From Planctomycetota bacterium (GTDB lineage: Bacteria > Planctomycetota > UBA8742 > SKZP01 > JAIOTL01), in NCBI GenBank assembly GCA_021106775.1, contig JAIOTL010000208.1, positions 1 to 9,734 on the forward strand: DNA of 9,734 nucleotides. The letters are read 5' to 3'. A program made the position numbers and the translations under genes. This document shows positions 479-9,200 of the stretch, in pieces. Each line of letters starts with the position of its first letter. Position 1 is the first letter of the stretch. The notes under the pieces were generated by a model. That model was not told the DNA's origin and searched no databases. It worked only from the letters and a program-made list of their open reading frames with translations.

Positions 479-1405
479 TTACTTTTTCTGTTCGTTTTCG
501 ATAATTTCGGTGAGTTTTCGAACAAGCGCGATATTAACGTTATGCCCGCTGCGAACCGCGATTAAATGCGCCTTCAAAGTTTTTGGTAAAAGTGATATGT
601 CACCGATTAAATCAAGCACTTTATGCCGTGTAAATTCGTTGGGAAAACGCAAATTATTCTCTATAACGCTGGTTTCGCCTACCACAAGGGTGTTTTTCGT
701 GGTCGCACCCTTGCCGAGACCCGCCAGCTGAAGCATTTGCACTTCGCTCTCAAGAACGAAAGTACGTGCAGGTGAAATATCGTTGATGAACGTTTCCTTT
801 TCGAGTTTATAGCTTAGGAAATCCTGCAAAAGCGGATGCTGATATGCAAGTGTGTAATCTATCTGAAGTTCGAACTTATCCGTTGGCATCGCCACAAGTG
901 TTGCGCCGTTAATTGAAACCCCAACAGGATTAGAAAGCTCATAATACTCTCTAATGGTATCCTGCTCAAGTGTGCCGGCTTTGACGATTATATCAACGTA
1001 TGCTTTTGCCGACCCATCCGAACCGGGAAGCTCAGGACCGTTAATTTCGACAAATACATTGTCAATTTCACAGCCTTTTAACGCAGCAAGCAGGTGCTCA
1101 ATTGTATGAATTTCCACATCACCGACAGTAAGTGCGGTGCGCCGCTGTCTCTCAACAAGATTATGCACTGAAACCAAAAGTCTGGGTTTTTCAGGTAGAT
1201 CGGTTCGAATGAAGACTACTCCCGTATTCTCAGGTGCAGGTTTCAGGGTTACTGTTACTTCACGACCCAAATGCAGCCCAATGCTTGTATGTGATACTTC
1301 ACTATTGATTGTTTGCTGATGTTTTTTTAGAAGTCCATCATCATTAGATTTAATATCTTCAGTTTTTTTCTGATTGTTAACAGCGTCAAAATCATGCTTA
1401 TTCAC
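479..1405 (-). CDS. lpxC: UDP-3-O-acyl-N-acetylglucosamine deacetylase (LpxC)
   Basis: LpxC is the zinc-dependent cytoplasmic deacetylase that commits UDP-3-O-acyl-GlcNAc to lipid A synthesis. The key residues are present. HTIEHLLAA gives the catalytic base E103 and zinc ligand H104. RHKVLDLIGD gives zinc ligands H261 and D265. SGHN gives the general acid/base H288. PELPGSDGSA (about 124-133) is also a family signature. The protein has 308 residues, close to the usual length, and is not fused to FabZ. The start codon is GTG at 1405: an in-frame stop lies four codons upstream, no in-frame ATG lies before the conserved core, and the Shine-Dalgarno is weak. The first ~27 residues are a polar, lysine/aspartate-rich extension ahead of the usual start of the fold (KKHQQTI). 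It ends in TAA. The 163-bp gap upstream suggests its own promoter. Confidence 0.96.
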   Translation of the reverse strand: MNKHDFDAVNNQKKTEDIKSNDDGLLKKHQQTINSEVSHTSIGLHLGREVTVTLKPAPENTGVVFIRTDLPEKPRLLVSVHNLVERQRRTALTVGDVEIHTIEHLLAALKGCEIDNVFVEINGPELPGSDGSAKAYVDIIVKAGTLEQDTIREYYELSNPVGVSINGATLVAMPTDKFELQIDYTLAYQHPLLQDFLSYKLEKETFINDISPARTFVLESEVQMLQLAGLGKGATTKNTLVVGETSVIENNLRFPNEFTRHKVLDLIGDISLLPKTLKAHLIAVRSGHNVNIALVRKLTEIIENEQKK

Positions 1406-1568: not shown

Positions 1569-2411
1569 TTAAAATGTCACCACCAGACTGATTTCAGGAT
1601 GTTTTTTACCCCATTTTACATACCCTCCAAGCAGATTCGGATCATGTTCGAATGCTGCAATGAATTTATTGTCAATTATCTCGGTGAGAATTTCTTCACG
1701 CTCTTGCATGAGTTTATCGACGTTGAGGTCAAACGCCATGTTGTATGCAATGGGAAGATGTGCAGAAGTCGGAATCAAATCAGATAGGTAAACTACAGAT
1801 TCGTTTTCACCGCGAATCCAGACTGTCTGCATCCCAAGAGTATGCCCGTCGCTGCGCCTGACCGAAACTCTTTCGGACAATTGTGCGTTTCCGTTGACGA
1901 TATTGAGCTGTGGTACAAGCGGCATCCAATTCTCTTCGAAAATCGACGCTTTTTCATGCAGGTTCGGATTTTTCGATGTTTCAAGATGTGCCTGTTGAAT
2001 ATGATATTTAGCGTTGGGGAATCTCGGTACAACTTCATTTTGCTCGTTATAAACCGTCAAACCACCACCATGGTCGAAGTGCAGATGGGTAATAATCACA
2101 TCGGTAATGTCTTTTGCTGATAGATTTAAATCCTGCAGTTGCTCTTCAATATCTTTGTCAGGATACGTCAAACCAAAGATTTTTTTCATTTTTTCCGAAT
2201 ATTTTCTTCCAGCACCGGAATCGATGAGCATTATTCTGTCATTATCGAATATCAGCAAACCCTGCATCGAGAATCGCAGGCGATTGTTTTCATCAGCTTT
2301 CTGCCATTTTTCCCATATGACTTTAGGCAAAATTCCGAACATACTTCCGCCGTCTAATAGCAAATCACCGAAATATATCGACTGAACCTTAGTTCCGCCT
2401 AAATCAAGCAT
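1569..2411 (-). CDS. Metallo-beta-lactamase-fold hydrolase (quorum-quenching-lactonase-like)
   Basis: This is a 280-residue MBL-fold enzyme with a complete dinuclear metal site: THLHFDHGGG (H109, H111, D113, H114), H190 in SDGHTLG, bridging D211 in YLSDLIP, and H256 in FEHDP. The opening DGGSMFGILPKVIWEKW and the FEHDP ending are typical of a large MBL subfamily that includes lactonase-like enzymes. The real substrate cannot be read from sequence and may be any lactone, ester or other hydrolysable compound. There is no signal peptide, so the protein is probably cytoplasmic. The start is supported by GGAG (2417-2420) five bases before ATG. It ends in TAA. It lies 93 bp downstream of pilB and 163 bp upstream of lpxC on the same strand, a loose arrangement that does not establish a functional link. 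Confidence 0.88.
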   Translation of the reverse strand: MLDLGGTKVQSIYFGDLLLDGGSMFGILPKVIWEKWQKADENNRLRFSMQGLLIFDNDRIMLIDSGAGRKYSEKMKKIFGLTYPDKDIEEQLQDLNLSAKDITDVIITHLHFDHGGGLTVYNEQNEVVPRFPNAKYHIQQAHLETSKNPNLHEKASIFEENWMPLVPQLNIVNGNAQLSERVSVRRSDGHTLGMQTVWIRGENESVVYLSDLIPTSAHLPIAYNMAFDLNVDKLMQEREEILTEIIDNKFIAAFEHDPNLLGGYVKWGKKHPEISLVVTF

Positions 2412-2504: not shown

Positions 2505-4253
2505 TTAGATTTCATCGACATCGTAAATCAGAGATAAACATTCCTCGATTGTAATTGAGCCTGATTTTACCTTCTTAAATGCGTTACCAACAATCGTTTC
2601 CATTCCTTCCTTGTGTGCCTGTGTTGTTAGTTCCTGCTCGCTGTTACCCTTGACAATCATTTCGCGAATTTCAGATGAAATGAATAAAAGCTCGTGGACA
2701 GCGGTACGTCCTTTCTTTCCAGTGCCTTTGCAATTTGGACAGCCTCGTCCAGCCATGAATTTAAATCCAAAATCTTCTTCATCGAAATGTTTTACCAGCG
2801 CAGTAACAAGCTCCTGCTCAGGCTTGATAATTGTTTTACATGATGTGCAGATTCTACGAACGAGACGTTGGGAAACCGCAGCAGTAAGAGTTGAGGCAAT
2901 TAGAAACGGCTCAGTGCCCATATTTATCATACGTTGAACAGATGCAACTGCATTATTTGTATGCAAAGTCGAAAAAACAAGGTGTCCCGTTAACGATGCT
3001 TTGATTGCCATCTCAAGCGTTTCCTTGTCTCGAATCTCTCCAACCATGATAATATCAGGGTCCTGTCGCAAAATTGAACGCAAACCCATTGCAAACGTCA
3101 AGCCAACCTGTGTCCTGACCGCGACCTGATTGATACCCTTAAGCTGATACTCAACAGGGTCTTCAACTGTAACGATATTAACATCAGGATTGTTGACATA
3201 GTTCAGGAAAGAATACAATGTTGTTGTCTTTCCCGAACCAGTCGGACCGCATAGCAGAATAATTCCATACGGGCGTGCAATGAGCTTTTTCGCAAGTTCA
3301 AGGGTGTCAGATTCCATCCCGATTTCATTAATATCAAGCGAAGTTGCTGTTTTATCGAGAAGACGCATAACAACTTTCTCTCCATGTACAAGCGGAAGTG
3401 TTGATACACGAATGTCAATATCGCGATTCATCATGCGAATTTTACATCGTCCATCCTGCGGTACGCGTCTTTCCGCAATGTCAAGTCCGGAAATAACCTT
3501 GATACGTGAAATAATCGGAGATTGAAGCTTTTTTGGTGGTGAAGACATTGAGTGAAGCTTGCCGTCAACTCTGAATCGCACTGAAACTGATTTCTCTTGT
3601 GGCTCGATGTGCATATCTGACGCACCTTCTTTCACTGCCTGTGCAAAAAGCGAATTCACGTATTTTACAACTGGTGCAGCCTCGTGGTCCATGGAAACAT
3701 CCATGCTGTCACCGTCAACATCATCGATGAGGGAGACATCGTCGCCGCCTTCAAGCTCATCGAATGCATGTGAAAGATCAGCACCTTCGGTATAAAAATT
3801 CTCAATCGCTTTTTCAATTTGATGTGGTAATGAAATCACAGGTTGAACTTCTTGAACTTTTGTAATTTGCTTGATTGTGTCAATTGCGTTAATATTTTTC
3901 GGGTCTGCCATTGCAACAAAAAGTGTGGCTTTGTCACCAACCTTGCGAATCTGCACAACTAAAAATTTAAATTTGCGTGCAAGAATCTCAGGCACAAGTT
4001 TGACAACGTCGGTATTCACGACACCAGCTTCGTTAGGGTCAACCGAAGGTATGCCAAACGCTTCCGACAAAGCTTCGAGAAGTTCAGTTTCCTTCACGTA
4101 CTTGAGTTCAAGAAGCTGTTCCCCGATAAGCTTTCCTGTTTCCTTTTGCTTCTCAAGCCCTTCGTCAAGCTGTTCCATCGTGAGTGTCGGCACTTTCTCA
4201 AGAAGAATCTGTCCGAAAAGTTTTCCCCAAATCGCCCCTTTTTCGATTGCCAT
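2505..4253 (-). CDS. pilB: Type IV pilus assembly ATPase PilB (GspE/PilB family)
   Basis: This hexameric cytoplasmic ATPase drives pilin polymerisation at the inner membrane. The N-terminal ~160 residues form a MshEN/GspE N-domain (LLEKVPTLTMEQLDEGL..., AFGIPSVD). An acidic linker follows (about 175-200), then the catalytic core. Visible motifs are Walker A GPTGSGKTT (G336-T344), the Asp box VEDPVEY, the Walker B region DPDIIMVGEIRD, and the His box TGHLVFSTLHTNN. The tetracysteine zinc site of PilB/GspE is intact (C469, C472, C505, C508). The 582-residue length is normal. A longer in-frame start at 4352 exists, but ATG at 4253 has GAGGG just upstream and begins at the conserved N-domain, and the longer form would overlap the divergent gene. 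No PilC or PilT gene lies nearby, but two pilins are encoded 4 kb away. GspE of a type II system is the alternative reading. Confidence 0.93.
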   Translation of the reverse strand: MAIEKGAIWGKLFGQILLEKVPTLTMEQLDEGLEKQKETGKLIGEQLLELKYVKETELLEALSEAFGIPSVDPNEAGVVNTDVVKLVPEILARKFKFLVVQIRKVGDKATLFVAMADPKNINAIDTIKQITKVQEVQPVISLPHQIEKAIENFYTEGADLSHAFDELEGGDDVSLIDDVDGDSMDVSMDHEAAPVVKYVNSLFAQAVKEGASDMHIEPQEKSVSVRFRVDGKLHSMSSPPKKLQSPIISRIKVISGLDIAERRVPQDGRCKIRMMNRDIDIRVSTLPLVHGEKVVMRLLDKTATSLDINEIGMESDTLELAKKLIARPYGIILLCGPTGSGKTTTLYSFLNYVNNPDVNIVTVEDPVEYQLKGINQVAVRTQVGLTFAMGLRSILRQDPDIIMVGEIRDKETLEMAIKASLTGHLVFSTLHTNNAVASVQRMINMGTEPFLIASTLTAAVSQRLVRRICTSCKTIIKPEQELVTALVKHFDEEDFGFKFMAGRGCPNCKGTGKKGRTAVHELLFISSEIREMIVKGNSEQELTTQAHKEGMETIVGNAFKKVKSGSITIEECLSLIYDVDEI

Positions 4254-4257
4254 CTTA

Positions 4258-4262
4258 CCCTC
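4258..4262 (-). promoter_or_regulatory. Ribosome binding site deciding the pilB start
   Basis: GAGGG on the minus strand stands 4 nt before the ATG at 4253. No comparable site precedes the in-frame candidate start at 4352. Confidence 0.65.
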
Positions 4263-4336
4263 GTTTGTTTTACTTCTAATTATGTTATCATTTTTCAAAT
4301 TATTCTTAATTAATTTTAAACAATTGAATACAAAAC

Positions 4337-5251
4337 ATGAAATTATTAACAATAAAAGGAAGTAATATTCCTGAAAACCTTAGAACCTTGCCTGTGGTTG
4401 ATGAGCTGAAAAGTCTGATTCAACGCGGATTCATCGTTATAGACAAACCCGCTGGGATGACCTCGCACGACGTCGTTGATAGAATTCGAAAGATTTACGG
4501 TATTCGCAAGGTCGGTCATGCTGGTACGCTTGACCCGATGGTAACCGGAGTTTTGCCAATCGGAATCGGTGAAGGAACAAAGCTTTTGCGTTTCCTGCTT
4601 GAATCTGGCAAGGTTTATCTCTGTGAAATGCTTGTTCATAAGGATATCGAAGCGGAGTTGATTGAAAAATCCCTTCATGAGCAGATTGGTGTAATTACTC
4701 AGCTTCCGCCTGTAAAATCACGGGTTAAACGAGTTGAACGCGACCGAGAGATTTATTCGCTTGATATTAAATCAATCACGAAACGCAAAGCGATTTTCGA
4801 GGTTTATTGCGAAGCGGGAACGTATATCCGCAAGCTTTGCCATGATGTCGGCGAGCAATTGGGTATAGGTGCAAACATGCATAAATTGCAGCGTTTAAGT
4901 GCCGGCGGTTTCAAGATTGACGAAGCGATCACGCTTGATGAACTTGAGAAAGCAAAAGCTACGGATGCAAAATCTGTCTTGAAATATCTGCGACCGCTTG
5001 AAGTCATGGTCGCGCACAAGCCGAAAATCTGGATTACAGACGGTGCTTCTCGGACTGTTTCCCAAGGTGCCAAGCTTGCTGCCCCCGGAATAATCGCTTT
5101 CGAGAAGTTTTCTGAAAATGATTTTGTTTTTCTTTACCGTGCAGATGGGAGCCTTGTTGCTGTTGCACTAGCGGAGATTTCTTCTGATGAAGCACAGGAA
5201 ATTAATCGGGGAATTGTCGCAGTTCCGCATAAAATTATCAAAAACCCATGA
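4337..5251 (+). CDS. cbf5: Cbf5/dyskerin-type (archaeal-like) tRNA pseudouridine synthase, TruB family
   Basis: This TruB-family enzyme converts uridine to pseudouridine, most likely U55 of tRNA. The catalytic Asp is D66 in GHAGTLDP. The GFIVIDKPAGMTSHDVV motif (31-47) and EAGTYIRKL (159-167) are intact. The details match archaeal Cbf5, not bacterial TruB. PPVKSRVKR (124-132) corresponds to the archaeal PPLRSAVKR. The bacterial G.RTDT.D..G loop is missing. A complete C-terminal PUA domain (about 230-304: KIWITD, GAKLAAPGI, NRGIVA) follows LRPLE. The N-terminus is shorter than the archaeal DKCLD region. At 304 residues it is slightly shorter than archaeal Cbf5 (about 330-340). The ATG at 4337 lacks a Shine-Dalgarno; TTG or GTG codons at residues 18 and 20 are conceivable alternatives. 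It is divergent from pilB across 83 AT-rich bases and ends in TGA. No partner genes (Nop10, Gar1, L7Ae) are in the window. Confidence 0.9.
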   Translation: MKLLTIKGSNIPENLRTLPVVDELKSLIQRGFIVIDKPAGMTSHDVVDRIRKIYGIRKVGHAGTLDPMVTGVLPIGIGEGTKLLRFLLESGKVYLCEMLVHKDIEAELIEKSLHEQIGVITQLPPVKSRVKRVERDREIYSLDIKSITKRKAIFEVYCEAGTYIRKLCHDVGEQLGIGANMHKLQRLSAGGFKIDEAITLDELEKAKATDAKSVLKYLRPLEVMVAHKPKIWITDGASRTVSQGAKLAAPGIIAFEKFSENDFVFLYRADGSLVAVALAEISSDEAQEINRGIVAVPHKIIKNP

Positions 5252-5300: not shown

Positions 5301-5510
5301 TGTCATTCAGAACGAAGTGAAGCGGATGAAGTCCTTTAATTATCCAGGTTAGTCCATCGCAAAACAGGGATTTACTGCATTTCATCGTTTCCAATGAAAA
5401 TAAAGATTCACGTTCAAAACATTTCATTCATAATATTTTTGGATTTAATCACCATTTTTTGTTTCGCTAGCCTGGATTCCTCGCTTCATTTCATTTCACT
5501 CGGAATGACA
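5301..5510. repeat. MITE-like element, copy B (210 bp)
   Basis: It starts TGTCATTCAG and ends CGGAATGACA, with long imperfect inverted arms. The left end shares GAAGTCCTTTAATTATCCAG with copy A at 207-425, in the same orientation. The interior (TCCATCGCAA...TTTCATC...TTTCCAAT) matches copy A only as its reverse complement. It fills most of the 5252-5577 gap between two convergent genes, where no other terminator is obvious, so its hairpin arms may end both transcripts (inference). No ORF and no clear target-site duplication are seen. Confidence 0.75.
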
Positions 5511-5577: not shown

Positions 5578-6726
5578 TTATTTTTGGAAAAGTGGCAGGA
5601 ATCTGTCCGGGATTGCGAGAATCATGGATGCAATTGCCGTGCCGTAAGCGTTGCCATATGATGAATTCCACGAGCCGTTAGCATTCTGCTTGGAAACAAG
5701 TTCATCGGAAATCTTCTTATAATACAATTTCCAGTCGGTACTTTTACTAGAGTGCCAAAATGCCTGTGATGCATAAAATTGTGCATAATAAAACCATGTT
5801 GTGTATGTTGAACGATCGCTTCCAGCACCGAAATTGTAGAAATAATTTCGCATCCACGACAGCGCACCTTCGAGGATTTCACCTTCGTAAATACCTGTAC
5901 CTTGTAGAACTGATGCGGCAGCAGCAGTTAATGGATATGATGATCTGTTTATACTCATCGATAATGAGTACTTAAACGTGTAACCGAGATGGTCTTTGCC
6001 GTCTGAACCCTTGAAATCAGTCGGCATCGCACATTTGTAAACATAGCGGATGGCGTTGTTAATCTTGCGTCTGGAAATGCTAATGCCTGCATCTCTTGCA
6101 GCACGCAGAAACTGAATCTGCGTGATTGTCGTTGAACCTTCATCAAATTGCTCATCATCAGGAACATATCCCCAACCACCGTCGCGAGTCTGACAATCCA
6201 GGGTCAATTTTTTTGCAGCTTTGACAATTGCGCTTTTTACTGAATCCTGAAGGTCTTTGTCGGTTAGCATTCCAAGAATCTGCGCCATGAACAAGCCAGC
6301 ATAGCCGTGTCCATGAATTCTTGAGTTGTCAGTGCGATAATGGAAATATCCTGTGTCTTTTCTCTGGATTTTCAATAGATGCTTGACGATTTTCTCGACG
6401 TTCTCAGCATATTCACCTCGATTGGGTAAATGTCCACCAGCAATAAAGGCAAGACCAGCAAGCGATGAGCAGGCGATGTCGTACGAACCGCCGTATGAGC
6501 CGTCACTGTTTTGCTCGCTCGATAAATATGCAAGACCGTTGTTTATTGCTCTGCGAATCCTCGATGTTATCTCAGATTCTTCCTCATCAGGTTCTTCGGT
6601 TGTTTCTCCATCTGAATCATCATCTCCATTATCAACAAGAGCAATTTTGCCGGGTTCATTGCCGAATGCCAGCACAAAAGTTAGGAGCAGCATGAATAAA
6701 AAGAGAAATCTATATTTCCGTATCAT
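5578..6726 (-). CDS. Secreted prenyltransferase/squalene-oxidase-repeat protein
   Basis: The 382-residue protein has a clear Sec signal: a charged start (MIRKYR), then hydrophobic residues 7-21, with cleavage likely near residue 22. No lipobox Cys is present. An acidic, disordered linker (32-52, mostly D and E) follows. The rest is a set of alpha-alpha repeats of the squalene cyclase/prenyltransferase beta-subunit type, with QW-like motifs NSDGSYGGSY (73-82), TRDGGWGY (about 180-187) and NANGSWNSSYGNAYGTA near the C-terminus. It ends IPDRFLPLFQK, an ending I associate with exported bacterial members of this repeat family. The cyclase DXDD acid motif is absent, so terpene cyclisation is unlikely. 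A binding or scaffold role in the periplasm or at the cell surface is an inference. GGAAG lies 9 nt before ATG. It is 71 bp downstream of the MATE gene and may be co-transcribed with it. Confidence 0.82.
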   Translation of the reverse strand: MIRKYRFLFLFMLLLTFVLAFGNEPGKIALVDNGDDDSDGETTEEPDEEESEITSRIRRAINNGLAYLSSEQNSDGSYGGSYDIACSSLAGLAFIAGGHLPNRGEYAENVEKIVKHLLKIQRKDTGYFHYRTDNSRIHGHGYAGLFMAQILGMLTDKDLQDSVKSAIVKAAKKLTLDCQTRDGGWGYVPDDEQFDEGSTTITQIQFLRAARDAGISISRRKINNAIRYVYKCAMPTDFKGSDGKDHLGYTFKYSLSMSINRSSYPLTAAAASVLQGTGIYEGEILEGALSWMRNYFYNFGAGSDRSTYTTWFYYAQFYASQAFWHSSKSTDWKLYYKKISDELVSKQNANGSWNSSYGNAYGTAIASMILAIPDRFLPLFQK

Positions 6727-6797: not shown

Positions 6798-7925
6798 TTA
6801 TTCGATTTGAAGGCTTGCGGGTATTGCAAGTCTTTGGGATTTTGAAGTTTCAATCTCGGGCAGATGTTTATTTGCATGTAAAATCCAGCGGTTTCTCGTC
6901 CACCAAAAGACCAGAACTATGCCCTTAAGGAGTGTTGTTGCGCTTATTGCCCACCAGATTCCGGTTACACCCATTTGCAGGTCAATTGCCAGGTAATATG
7001 CCAGCGGAATTCTCAGAATTGAAAGTGGCAGCGAAATAAATAATGTCGGCATCGTGTTGCCCGTACCTGAAAATGCCGCTCCCGCAATTATTTCCCAGCC
7101 CATAAATATCTCGAATACTGCACAAATCATCAAATATCTGCTTCCTTCGAAAACCACGTTTGCAGGTTGCTTGTACAAGGCATATATAAAAGGCGCACCA
7201 AAGAAAAAGAGCAGGCAGAAGAAAATGAGAATTATGTTTGTGTAACTTAGACAGATTTTAAATGATTCTTTCACCCGATCAAATTGCCTGGCTCCGATAT
7301 TCTGCCCGACTAAAGTCGCAACCGCGGTTGCAAGTCCATGAGCAATGAAAAACGGAATCCCCTCAATTCGATGACCGATTGTAACCGCAGCCAGAGGTGC
7401 ATCGCCAAACTTCGTTATTATCTTTGTTAGAAAAAGGTAAATGATTGAAAACCCCACACTAATTGACGCTACGGGCACTCCGATGTAAATAATCCTGCTG
7501 ACACTTGGGAAAAAACCGAATTCTTTATGAAATTTAACTTTGTATTTTCGCCTGACGAAAAGGATGACAAAAGTTATTACAGCAACTATTTCAGCAAACA
7601 ATGTTGCCCAGGCAGCACCCGCAACCCCAAGCTTCGGGAAAATCCATAACCCGTTAATCAAGAACGGATCGAGGGCAGCATTAATAACGTTTGCAACAAT
7701 CATGACAATCATCGGACGAACAGCATCTCCGTCACCTCTGAAAATACTGTCCGCAGCAAGAGCGAACGTGAGAATCGGTGCACAATAGAAAATAATATTG
7801 AGATAACTCGATGCGCTTGCTTTTGCGAGAACACTTAGCTCCATGAAGTCAAGGGCGAAAGGAGTTAGTAACTTGCCAGCAATTAGAATGAAAATCCCCA
7901 GAAATCCCGAGAATATAAAGCTCAT
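6798..7925 (-). CDS. MATE transporter, C-terminal fragment after the TAG (375 aa)
   Basis: This is the in-frame continuation of the MATE gene. It carries the remaining membrane segments, including conserved MATE loops such as DSIFRGDGDAVRPMI, LDPFLINGLWIFPKLGVAGAAWAT, and the second-half GARQFDRVKE and AFSGTGNTMPT. The ATG at 7925 (MSFIFSG) is only an internal methionine three codons after the TAG. No Shine-Dalgarno precedes it, so independent translation is doubtful. It ends in TAA. Confidence 0.6.
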   Translation of the reverse strand: MSFIFSGFLGIFILIAGKLLTPFALDFMELSVLAKASASSYLNIIFYCAPILTFALAADSIFRGDGDAVRPMIVMIVANVINAALDPFLINGLWIFPKLGVAGAAWATLFAEIVAVITFVILFVRRKYKVKFHKEFGFFPSVSRIIYIGVPVASISVGFSIIYLFLTKIITKFGDAPLAAVTIGHRIEGIPFFIAHGLATAVATLVGQNIGARQFDRVKESFKICLSYTNIILIFFCLLFFFGAPFIYALYKQPANVVFEGSRYLMICAVFEIFMGWEIIAGAAFSGTGNTMPTLFISLPLSILRIPLAYYLAIDLQMGVTGIWWAISATTLLKGIVLVFWWTRNRWILHANKHLPEIETSKSQRLAIPASLQIE

Positions 7926-7931
7926 AAACGA

Positions 7932-8240
7932 CTAATGTGCAATACCCTTCTGGTTTTTAGCACCTTTATTCTGCGAAATCATCGCTATTGTTGACGTGCT
8001 GATAATTGCGAAAAGGGAATACAAAAACCAGAGAATGAACGATGCTGCTCCGAAACCAGCGACCGTGGCGGTACTAAGGTTGGAGTCTTTGTACGCATTG
8101 GCAATCCAGTATGAGTCTGCCAGTTCAAACATAATCGCCGTTATCATCGAAATCATCGCAGGTATCGCCAGCTTCCACATCGCTTTTCGCAGGTTGCCGT
8201 GAGTGATTATGTTGAATTCATCTTTGGCTTCATCAGGCAT
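7932..8240 (-). CDS. MATE transporter, N-terminal fragment before the TAG (102 aa)
   Basis: This is the N-terminal part of the interrupted MATE gene. It covers the cytoplasmic start (HGNLRKAMWKLAIPAM, the usual entry to membrane segment 1) and the first two membrane segments, ending at GAKNQKGIAH. That GAKN(Q/K)KG loop is typical of MATE proteins just before the third segment. On its own it could not transport. It ends in TAG, which no other gene in the window uses as its stop. Confidence 0.6.
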   Translation of the reverse strand: MPDEAKDEFNIITHGNLRKAMWKLAIPAMISMITAIMFELADSYWIANAYKDSNLSTATVAGFGAASFILWFLYSLFAIISTSTIAMISQNKGAKNQKGIAH

Positions 8241-8975: not shown

Positions 8976-9200
8976 GTCATTCCTGCGAAATCGGTAGGAC
9001 AGGCATCCTTGCCTGTCAAGAAAAGACTCACTTTCCTGTCATTCTGAGCATAGTGAAGAATCCATCTTTCTCTTGTCATTCGAGAGGATGAGACTACGGT
9101 CTTCAACCGTAGGTTAAATATTTCCGTGGAAACGCAACTCTTGTTTTTGTCATTGTGCTCAGAATGACAAGGGGTGTAGAGAATGTCATTCTTGCAAGAA
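8976..9200. repeat. Cluster of truncated palindromic/MITE-like remnants
   Basis: This gene-free stretch between the two pilin genes is a mosaic. GTCATTCCTGCGAAA (from 8976) copies the start of the 18-96 element. GACAGGCA-TCCT-TGCCTGTC (8998-9017) is a perfect 8-bp hairpin. TGTCATTCTGAGCATAGTG (from 9037), running into GAAGAATCCA, is a solo arm of the larger elements. CTACGGT/ACCGTAG (9094-9112) is another hairpin. TTGTCATT...AATGACAA (9147-9170) looks like two element tips joined with the interior lost. TGTCATTCTTGCAAG (from 9184) is a further fragment. A 69-codon plus-strand reading frame across it is not a gene. Confidence 0.65.

Follow-up and report, generated by a model that had tools for sequence, protein, structure and literature searches.

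The window, by which we mean the whole stretch of 9,734 nucleotides that was analysed, carries a gene for a Cbf5-family pseudouridine synthase, arranged divergently to a gene for a PilB-like ATPase and separated from it by a gap of 83 bases (4254-4336). An in-frame stop lies four codons 5' of its ATG, and its product (the window protein) is entered as P0001 in our list of relatives. The features referred to below are:

479-1405, minus strand: gene for LpxC, 308 aa (232.6 bits against a cut-off of 187.25)
2505-4253, minus strand: pilB-like ATPase gene, ATG at 4253 (best NCBIfam match TIGR02538; PF00437, 457 bits)
4337-5251, plus strand: cbf5, Cbf5-family pseudouridine synthase gene, ATG start, 304 aa
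4391-4477, plus strand: shortened N-terminal DKCLD domain, residues 19-47 (PF08068, 24.7 bits)
4454-4513, plus strand: TruB-like segment, residues 40-59 (profile score −22 for the window protein)
4532-4534, plus strand: codon of the catalytic aspartate, D66, in GHAGTLDP (invariant in 67 aligned sequences)
5021-5236, plus strand: PUA RNA-binding domain, residues 229-300 (PF01472, 61 bits)

The flanks of cbf5 are bacterial, as a preliminary description of this DNA had stated: the PilB-like ATPase scores 605 bits with TIGR02538 (below that model's cut-off of 675.65), LpxC exceeds its cut-off, and two pilin-like genes are present. The window LpxC has relatives at 75-89% identity and, among the matches listed, its named relatives come from Planctomycetota and Omnitrophota (44-48% identity; Aceula is counted with the latter). 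It is a standalone protein of 308 aa. P0122-P0124 share this form, but the majority of the 120 relatives listed are fusions of LpxC with FabZ, about 440 aa long. The window further encodes a metallo-β-lactamase-fold protein (1569-2411, minus strand), for which the YtnP lactonase model is nearest with 191.5 bits, far below its cut-off of 425, and a squalene-cyclase/prenyltransferase-like toroid protein with a hydrophobic N-terminus (5578-6726, minus strand), which a gene near Cbf5 in another genome (G037, L078:127-1197, minus strand) resembles by eye. A MATE-family transporter is split across the adjacent frames 6798-7925 and 7932-8240 (minus strand), reflecting either a broken gene or a sequencing error. 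Three elements, at 204-428, 5301-5510 and 9037-9169, are bounded by inverted ends resembling TGTCATTC, and a 70-base direct repeat (207-276 and 5301-5370) is 81% identical; these elements look like a small non-coding mobile element. We considered the stretch 3' of cbf5 (5301-5510) as a candidate guide RNA and rejected it, because it is an inverted-repeat element resembling that at 204-428.

The window protein exceeds the cut-offs of both NCBIfam equivalog models for Cbf5 (NF003280, 289.1 bits against 242; TIGR00425, 257.9 bits against 238.15) and stays below that of the TruB equivalog (TIGR00431, 128.1 bits against 151.45). In Pfam it matches TruB_N, TruB_C_2 and PUA, with a short DKCLD domain below threshold. 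Its top PDB matches by sequence are to Pyrococcus Cbf5 (about 195 bits), with yeast Cbf5 at 163 bits and TruB at 115.6 bits at most. An AlphaFold2 model (mean pLDDT 93.9, pTM 0.88) gave a similar picture in a Foldseek search against the PDB: among the 50 matches listed, rows 1-30 are all Cbf5/dyskerin and the top TruB is row 31, with two further Cbf5/dyskerin chains (9g25_E and 9yfo_A) ranking below it in rows 32 and 37. Compared with four TruB rows, both TruB insertions are missing from the window protein, namely the thumb insert and the one bearing the TDTxD motif, in agreement with the earlier remark that the bacterial TDT.D loop is absent; the T(D/S)TxD pattern itself occurs in just 8 of 15 TruB rows checked. 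The motifs quoted in that description are present in the translation. D66, Y94 and R165, which we take to be the catalytic aspartate and the active-site tyrosine and arginine, are invariant across 67 aligned sequences. Both equivalog matches, the side of the tree on which it falls (see below), the Asp/Tyr/Arg set and the PUA domain place the window protein in the Cbf5/dyskerin family, and the TIGR00431 score and the lack of both inserts place it outside TruB. As had been proposed, the window gene thus encodes a true Cbf5-family pseudouridine synthase in a bacterial setting, and its catalytic residues are intact.

The shortening of the N-terminal region, also noted previously, is evident from the DKCLD match, which covers positions 30-58 of the 58 in the PF08068 profile and, at 24.7 bits, falls short of the cut-off (27); the precomputed Pfam list includes the domain for this protein. 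That list gives no PF08068 for some accepted family members, such as P0074, whose name is H/ACA subunit 4, and P0110, a DPANN Cbf5 by name, and we treated DKCLD as typical of the Cbf5/dyskerin family, not as defining for it.

Four relatives of the window protein, P0002-P0005, share 71-88% identity with it, and all lie on other contigs. When we searched with a profile of its clade, P0001-P0010 ranked first, followed after a gap (416 vs 371 bits) by P0026 and P0011. P0007 is named as a planctomycetotal protein, and genome G286 encodes a Cbf5 identical to P0010. Among 392 evenly drawn Planctomycetota genomes, five have Cbf5 at E≤1e-50, a threshold at which the model matched all four archaeal and none of the ten bacterial control genomes; three exceed the model's cut-off, and the Cbf5 of G033 is a partial match below it (182.6 bits). 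When 199 genomes related to G286 were searched, four of the same five came up again and no new one was added. In a set of 39 genomes comprising G288 and its relatives, the CBF5 model found Cbf5 above cut-off in three (G288, G396, G400), weak TruB-like matches in two and neither enzyme in 34. Of 10 further relatives that were scanned (G033 not among them), nine pass both Cbf5 models and that of G010 passes NF003280 alone.

The Cbf5 proteins of G288, G396 and G400 are 51-57% identical to one another and lie beside a conserved block of genes for S30AE/hpf, PTS EIIA, HPr and enzyme I. This shared bacterial block indicates inheritance on a bacterial chromosome and not contamination. Other neighbours of Cbf5 are dapF in G286, an aceE-like gene in G033, and efp and a phosphopentomutase-like gene in G010. 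A Cbf5 lineage lives in bacteria, where it is best documented in Planctomycetota. The Cbf5 of G010 (L067 / L079:9009-9974) is diverged, with GHLGQLDPPLTG around the catalytic aspartate, and occurs besides a separate TruB; it may have a different target.

In a tree of 63 rows, as in an earlier one, Cbf5 and TruB are split with support of 100/100 and the window protein falls on the Cbf5 side, so that the phylogeny called for in the preliminary description places it outside TruB (our trees contained no eukaryotic row). Together with P0002-P0004, P0006-P0010 and P0026 it forms a ten-row clade (100/92), to which we refer as the window clade. The 31 archaeal-type rows form a clade of their own (95/87), outside of which falls the archaeal G003, and G037, G288, G396 and G400 group weakly (95/55). 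With TruB as root, P0011 and G033 branch first and the window clade second, ahead of the other 37 Cbf5 rows, at forks supported by 81/84 and 86/91. We also asked by AU tests whether all bacterial Cbf5 form a single clade. Computed on an earlier tree of 62 rows, for groups that we defined once that tree was known, they rejected a clade of 13 bacterial rows (p 0.0009) and did not reject one of 15 rows that included P0011 and P0026 (p 0.405), so that one entry into bacteria is indistinguishable from a few. G010, G037, G288, G396 and G400 as one group were not rejected (p 0.413). In these analyses, the archaeal-type rows are the nearest search matches, many of them unnamed and rich in DPANN, so that some hosts are uncertain; the truncated P0005 (248 aa) was excluded from trees and residue counts, and L059_TruB, which has a masked stretch, was kept in the earlier tree and dropped from the 63-row tree and the residue profiles.

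A misassembly of archaeal and bacterial DNA, named beforehand as the outcome that would overturn the assignment, finds no support. In GC content cbf5 resembles its neighbours, its GC3 is 0.40 where that of the neighbouring genes in the window is 0.30-0.42, and its RSCU correlation to the remaining genes is 0.81, within their own range of 0.56-0.91. P0002, which is 88% identical, sits on a separate contig of 18,875 bases. That an archaeal gene came to be here through misassembly or a binning error might be suspected since the relatives are largely metagenomic and few Planctomycetota (5 of 392) have Cbf5, but the codon usage and GC3, the occurrence of P0002 on another contig, the single conserved bacterial gene block in three genomes and the separation of the window clade from the archaeal-type rows in the tree all speak against it, and we regard such an artefact as scarcely credible. 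The data fit a single real lineage and not two organisms joined.

Within the Cbf5-like sequence, residues 40-59, which start within the DKPAGMTSHD motif, stand apart. Scored against profiles of the two families, this segment is below zero, that is on the TruB side, in all 14 TruB rows, the 166 archaeal-type rows all score above zero (+5.2 or higher), and all nine window-clade members examined lie on the TruB side, with scores between −15 and −29. Further scores are +11 in G003, +2 in P0026, −7 in P0011 and −9 in G037 and G288. The earlier claim that the protein follows archaeal Cbf5 along its whole length is slightly too strong, because this segment is closer to TruB than to archaeal Cbf5. A mosaic formed by recombination with TruB was considered and is not claimed here, because the tree of the N-terminal block (51 columns) is unresolved. 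We read the segment as the mark of an enzyme tuned to the free T-arm of tRNA, and as a clearer indication than the residue losses described below.

The same segment bears on where the bacterial copies came from. We infer that they originated by transfer from archaea. Alternatively, they could descend from a common ancestor of Cbf5 and TruB that predated the archaeal guide particle, in keeping with the TruB-like residues 40-59 of the window clade and with the branching of first P0011 and G033 and then the window clade ahead of the other 37 Cbf5 rows under a TruB root. Yet fast-evolving copies drawn towards the outgroup also branch basally, the forks concerned have supports of 81/84 and 86/91, and the AU tests, with groups chosen post hoc, rejected the clade of 13 bacterial rows and not that of 15. 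The patchy distribution, moreover, favours transfer, and we consider descent from such an ancestor rather improbable.

Residue conservation differs between the domains of the window clade. Across 167 archaeal-type rows, 87 columns are at least 85% conserved, of which the window clade (nine sequences) retains 72. Without G003 (166 rows, 85 columns), retention is 65 of 71 in the catalytic domain, 7 of 12 in the PUA domain and tail and 0 of 2 at the N-terminus (Fisher p 0.008 for catalytic domain against PUA and tail, with domain borders set by us and columns that are not independent). Fifteen of these columns are seldom matched by TruB; of them, all nine clade members examined keep 7 of 10 in the catalytic domain and none of the remaining five. 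An N-terminal glycine and arginine conserved in archaea are missing from 9/9 of them, the PUA domain lacks the archaeal-conserved histidine, lysine and glutamate, and the C-terminal tyrosine tail is gone as well. G037, G288 and G010 retain the N-terminal Gly/Arg, the PUA Lys/Glu and the tail Tyr, and do not retain the PUA His. The ACA end and the lower stem of the guide are held in place by the PUA domain, according to passages in PMC7991803 and PMC3726423, and the losses in the window clade could reflect release from guide binding. They were rejected as proof of guide-free action, for which they are not diagnostic because the Cbf5 of an archaeon with Nop10 and L7Ae (G003, Pacearchaeota; L060) has lost these five positions of the N-terminus, PUA domain and tail as well; four or five of these are also missing in 9 of the 166 archaeal-type rows. 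Since the Cbf5-specific columns of the catalytic domain are largely kept (7/10), some partner contact could persist.

In profile searches of five related genomes that carry Cbf5, we found no credible partner of an H/ACA particle. Nop10 had no match above cut-off in any of the five; two matches of 16 bits look like chance, lying within reading frames as long as 996 and 1048 aa. At the loose threshold, all four archaeal controls matched, as did two bacterial ones. L7Ae gave no match in 5/5 genomes and matched 4/4 archaeal controls, in a family that is not specific to archaea since four bacterial controls match too. Gar1 also gave no match in 5/5; its profile matched 4/4 archaeal controls, yet just two of all 14 controls exceeded the cut-off, and the sensitivity of this search is limited because it gave no match in G003 either, an archaeon in which Nop10 and L7Ae were matched. 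One genome from the window's own clade entered the partner and TruB searches, G286, which is in many contigs and has no stated completeness. Within the window, no Rfam model, box H/ACA included, gave a match, even with the threshold relaxed to E≤1. Guide use by the window Cbf5, which had been raised as one option, is thus unsupported.

The window protein might still catalyse pseudouridylation within a guide-RNA particle of bacteria if its partners had diverged from Nop10, Gar1 and L7Ae beyond detection, or were unrelated to them. This would account for the 7 of 10 Cbf5-specific catalytic-domain columns kept in all nine clade members examined and for the archaeal residues that G010, G037 and G288 retain at the N-terminus (Gly/Arg), in the PUA domain (Lys/Glu) and in the tail (Tyr). 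Nor does the loss of the five residues in the window rule out a particle, because G003 combines the same loss with Nop10 and L7Ae. Against it stand the lack of credible partners in 5/5 related genomes, the negative Rfam search of the window (E≤1) and the TruB-like character of residues 40-59, so that we hold a particle of this kind to be very unlikely. The broader notion that some bacteria run guide-RNA-directed pseudouridylation, with the Cbf5-specific residues kept for docking as yet undescribed bacterial partners and guide RNAs, appears slimmer still.

A transfer followed by replacement of TruB, as envisaged in the preliminary description, is plausible and not shown. In its favour, six of seven Cbf5-bearing Planctomycetota genomes have no separate TruB (five judged with the TruB_N model, G396 and G400 with the CBF5 model, which also catches TruB); G010 is the sole one of the five tested with TruB_N that has one. 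This remains suggestive because TruB_N is unmatched in 95 of 199 Planctomycetota genomes anyway (completeness not given), whereas all 14 controls match. Among the 104 genomes with a match, G033, G037 and G286 match solely through their Cbf5. In the class of G286 (20 genomes), one has Cbf5, two have a TruB match (one of them a contig-edge piece) and 17 have neither, and of the two genomes in the class of G037, G037 itself has Cbf5 and G005 has TruB. We therefore abandoned co-occurrence statistics as an argument for substitution, given that 95/199 genomes are without a TruB_N match and that 17/20 and 34/39 have neither enzyme. As a separate observation, the 95 unmatched genomes suggest that loss of the usual Ψ55 synthase may be common in Planctomycetota.

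Our preferred reading, to which we assign a probability of roughly 57%, is that the window gene belongs to an old bacterial Cbf5 lineage that works without a guide, as a single polypeptide making Ψ55 in tRNA, in place of an absent TruB. The PUA domain and the catalytic face of the lone Cbf5 polypeptide would bind tRNA without an H/ACA guide, U55 of the T-loop would enter the TruB-type active site (Asp66, Tyr94, Arg165) and be isomerised to pseudouridine, and Cbf5 would thereby take over the job of TruB where this is absent. We infer both U55 as the substrate of the window enzyme and its action without partners. The active site of the pseudouridine synthase family is described in general terms in a part of PMC7991803, and passages there and in PMC7912444 bear out the earlier statement that archaeal Cbf5 can make Ψ55 in tRNA alone, in vitro, and report that its PUA domain can hold the CCA end of tRNA. 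According to portions of PMC7912444, this in vitro activity is raised by Nop10 and Gar1, and a cbf5 deletion in Haloferax volcanii retains Ψ55, so that archaeal Cbf5 is not the main Ψ55 enzyme in that organism.

A lone bacterial Cbf5 could instead target rRNA, at a uridine of the peptidyl-transferase centre or of helix 69. For archaeal Cbf5, a part of PMC6138745 describes the guide-free formation of one pseudouridine in 23S rRNA, and hpf, the gene for a ribosome hibernation factor, is close to Cbf5 in G288, G396 and G400. G010, moreover, has TruB besides Cbf5, so that its Cbf5 must either be redundant or act on something else. The archaeal 23S activity depended on Gar1, however, again by an excerpt of PMC6138745, and Gar1 was not found in 5/5 related genomes; the proximity of hpf is weak evidence of a target and occurs on another branch than the window clade, whose TruB-like residues 40-59 point to the substrate of TruB. 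We therefore judge an rRNA target to be unlikely, though likelier than the other alternatives. Overall, the window gene probably encodes a guide-free bacterial Cbf5.

Reviews place Cbf5 in archaea and eukaryotes, with a guide RNA as partner and outside Bacteria (passages in PMC7912444 and PMC7991803), and describe bacterial pseudouridine synthases as stand-alone only (a passage in PMC7991803). The literature titles and openings of abstracts that we searched, a coverage that mostly leaves aside subscription journals and preprints, contained no bacterial Cbf5. Automatic database naming already extends to some bacterial relatives, P0007 being called 'RNA-guided pseudouridylation complex subunit', a name that calls for caution in proteins of this kind. 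A bacterial Cbf5 without detectable H/ACA partners breaks the rule that Cbf5 lies outside Bacteria, while the stand-alone rule probably survives. It offers a natural experiment on the role of Cbf5 without a guide and can help to separate the residues that serve the guide particle from those that serve catalysis.

Among known systems, archaeal Pus10, a Ψ54/55 synthase, makes Ψ55 without a guide, as stated in a part of PMC7912444, and yields a weak local profile match, but the window protein reaches only 36.7 bits with its model (cut-off 200), across about 80 residues. Eukaryotic Cbf5/dyskerin (3u28, 8oue) shares family and fold (TM 0.87 and 0.90, query-normalised), yet the window protein, with 304 aa, lacks its N- and C-terminal extensions, and it is less similar by sequence than archaeal Cbf5 (163 bits for yeast against 195 for Pyrococcus). 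Archaeal Cbf5, the catalytic subunit of the H/ACA sRNP (3hax, 2ey4, 2apo), resembles the window protein in full-length homology, PUA domain, catalytic Asp/Tyr/Arg, a short thumb, the lack of TruB inserts and the fold of the AlphaFold2 model (Foldseek TM 0.91 to 3hax, query-normalised). Unlike it, the window protein has a bacterial host, a short DKCLD domain and TruB-like residues 40-59, and is without the tyrosine tail and the PUA His/Lys/Glu, most of which some archaeal rows lack too; unlike the archaeal systems, the five related bacterial genomes contain no credible Nop10, Gar1 or L7Ae. Bacterial TruB, the tRNA Ψ55 synthase (1r3e, 1k8w), differs by the TIGR00431 score of the window protein (128.1 < 151.45 bits), by its inserts and by its position across the 100/100 split, but shares with the window protein the superfamily and the active site, resembles it at residues 40-59 and probably does the same job.
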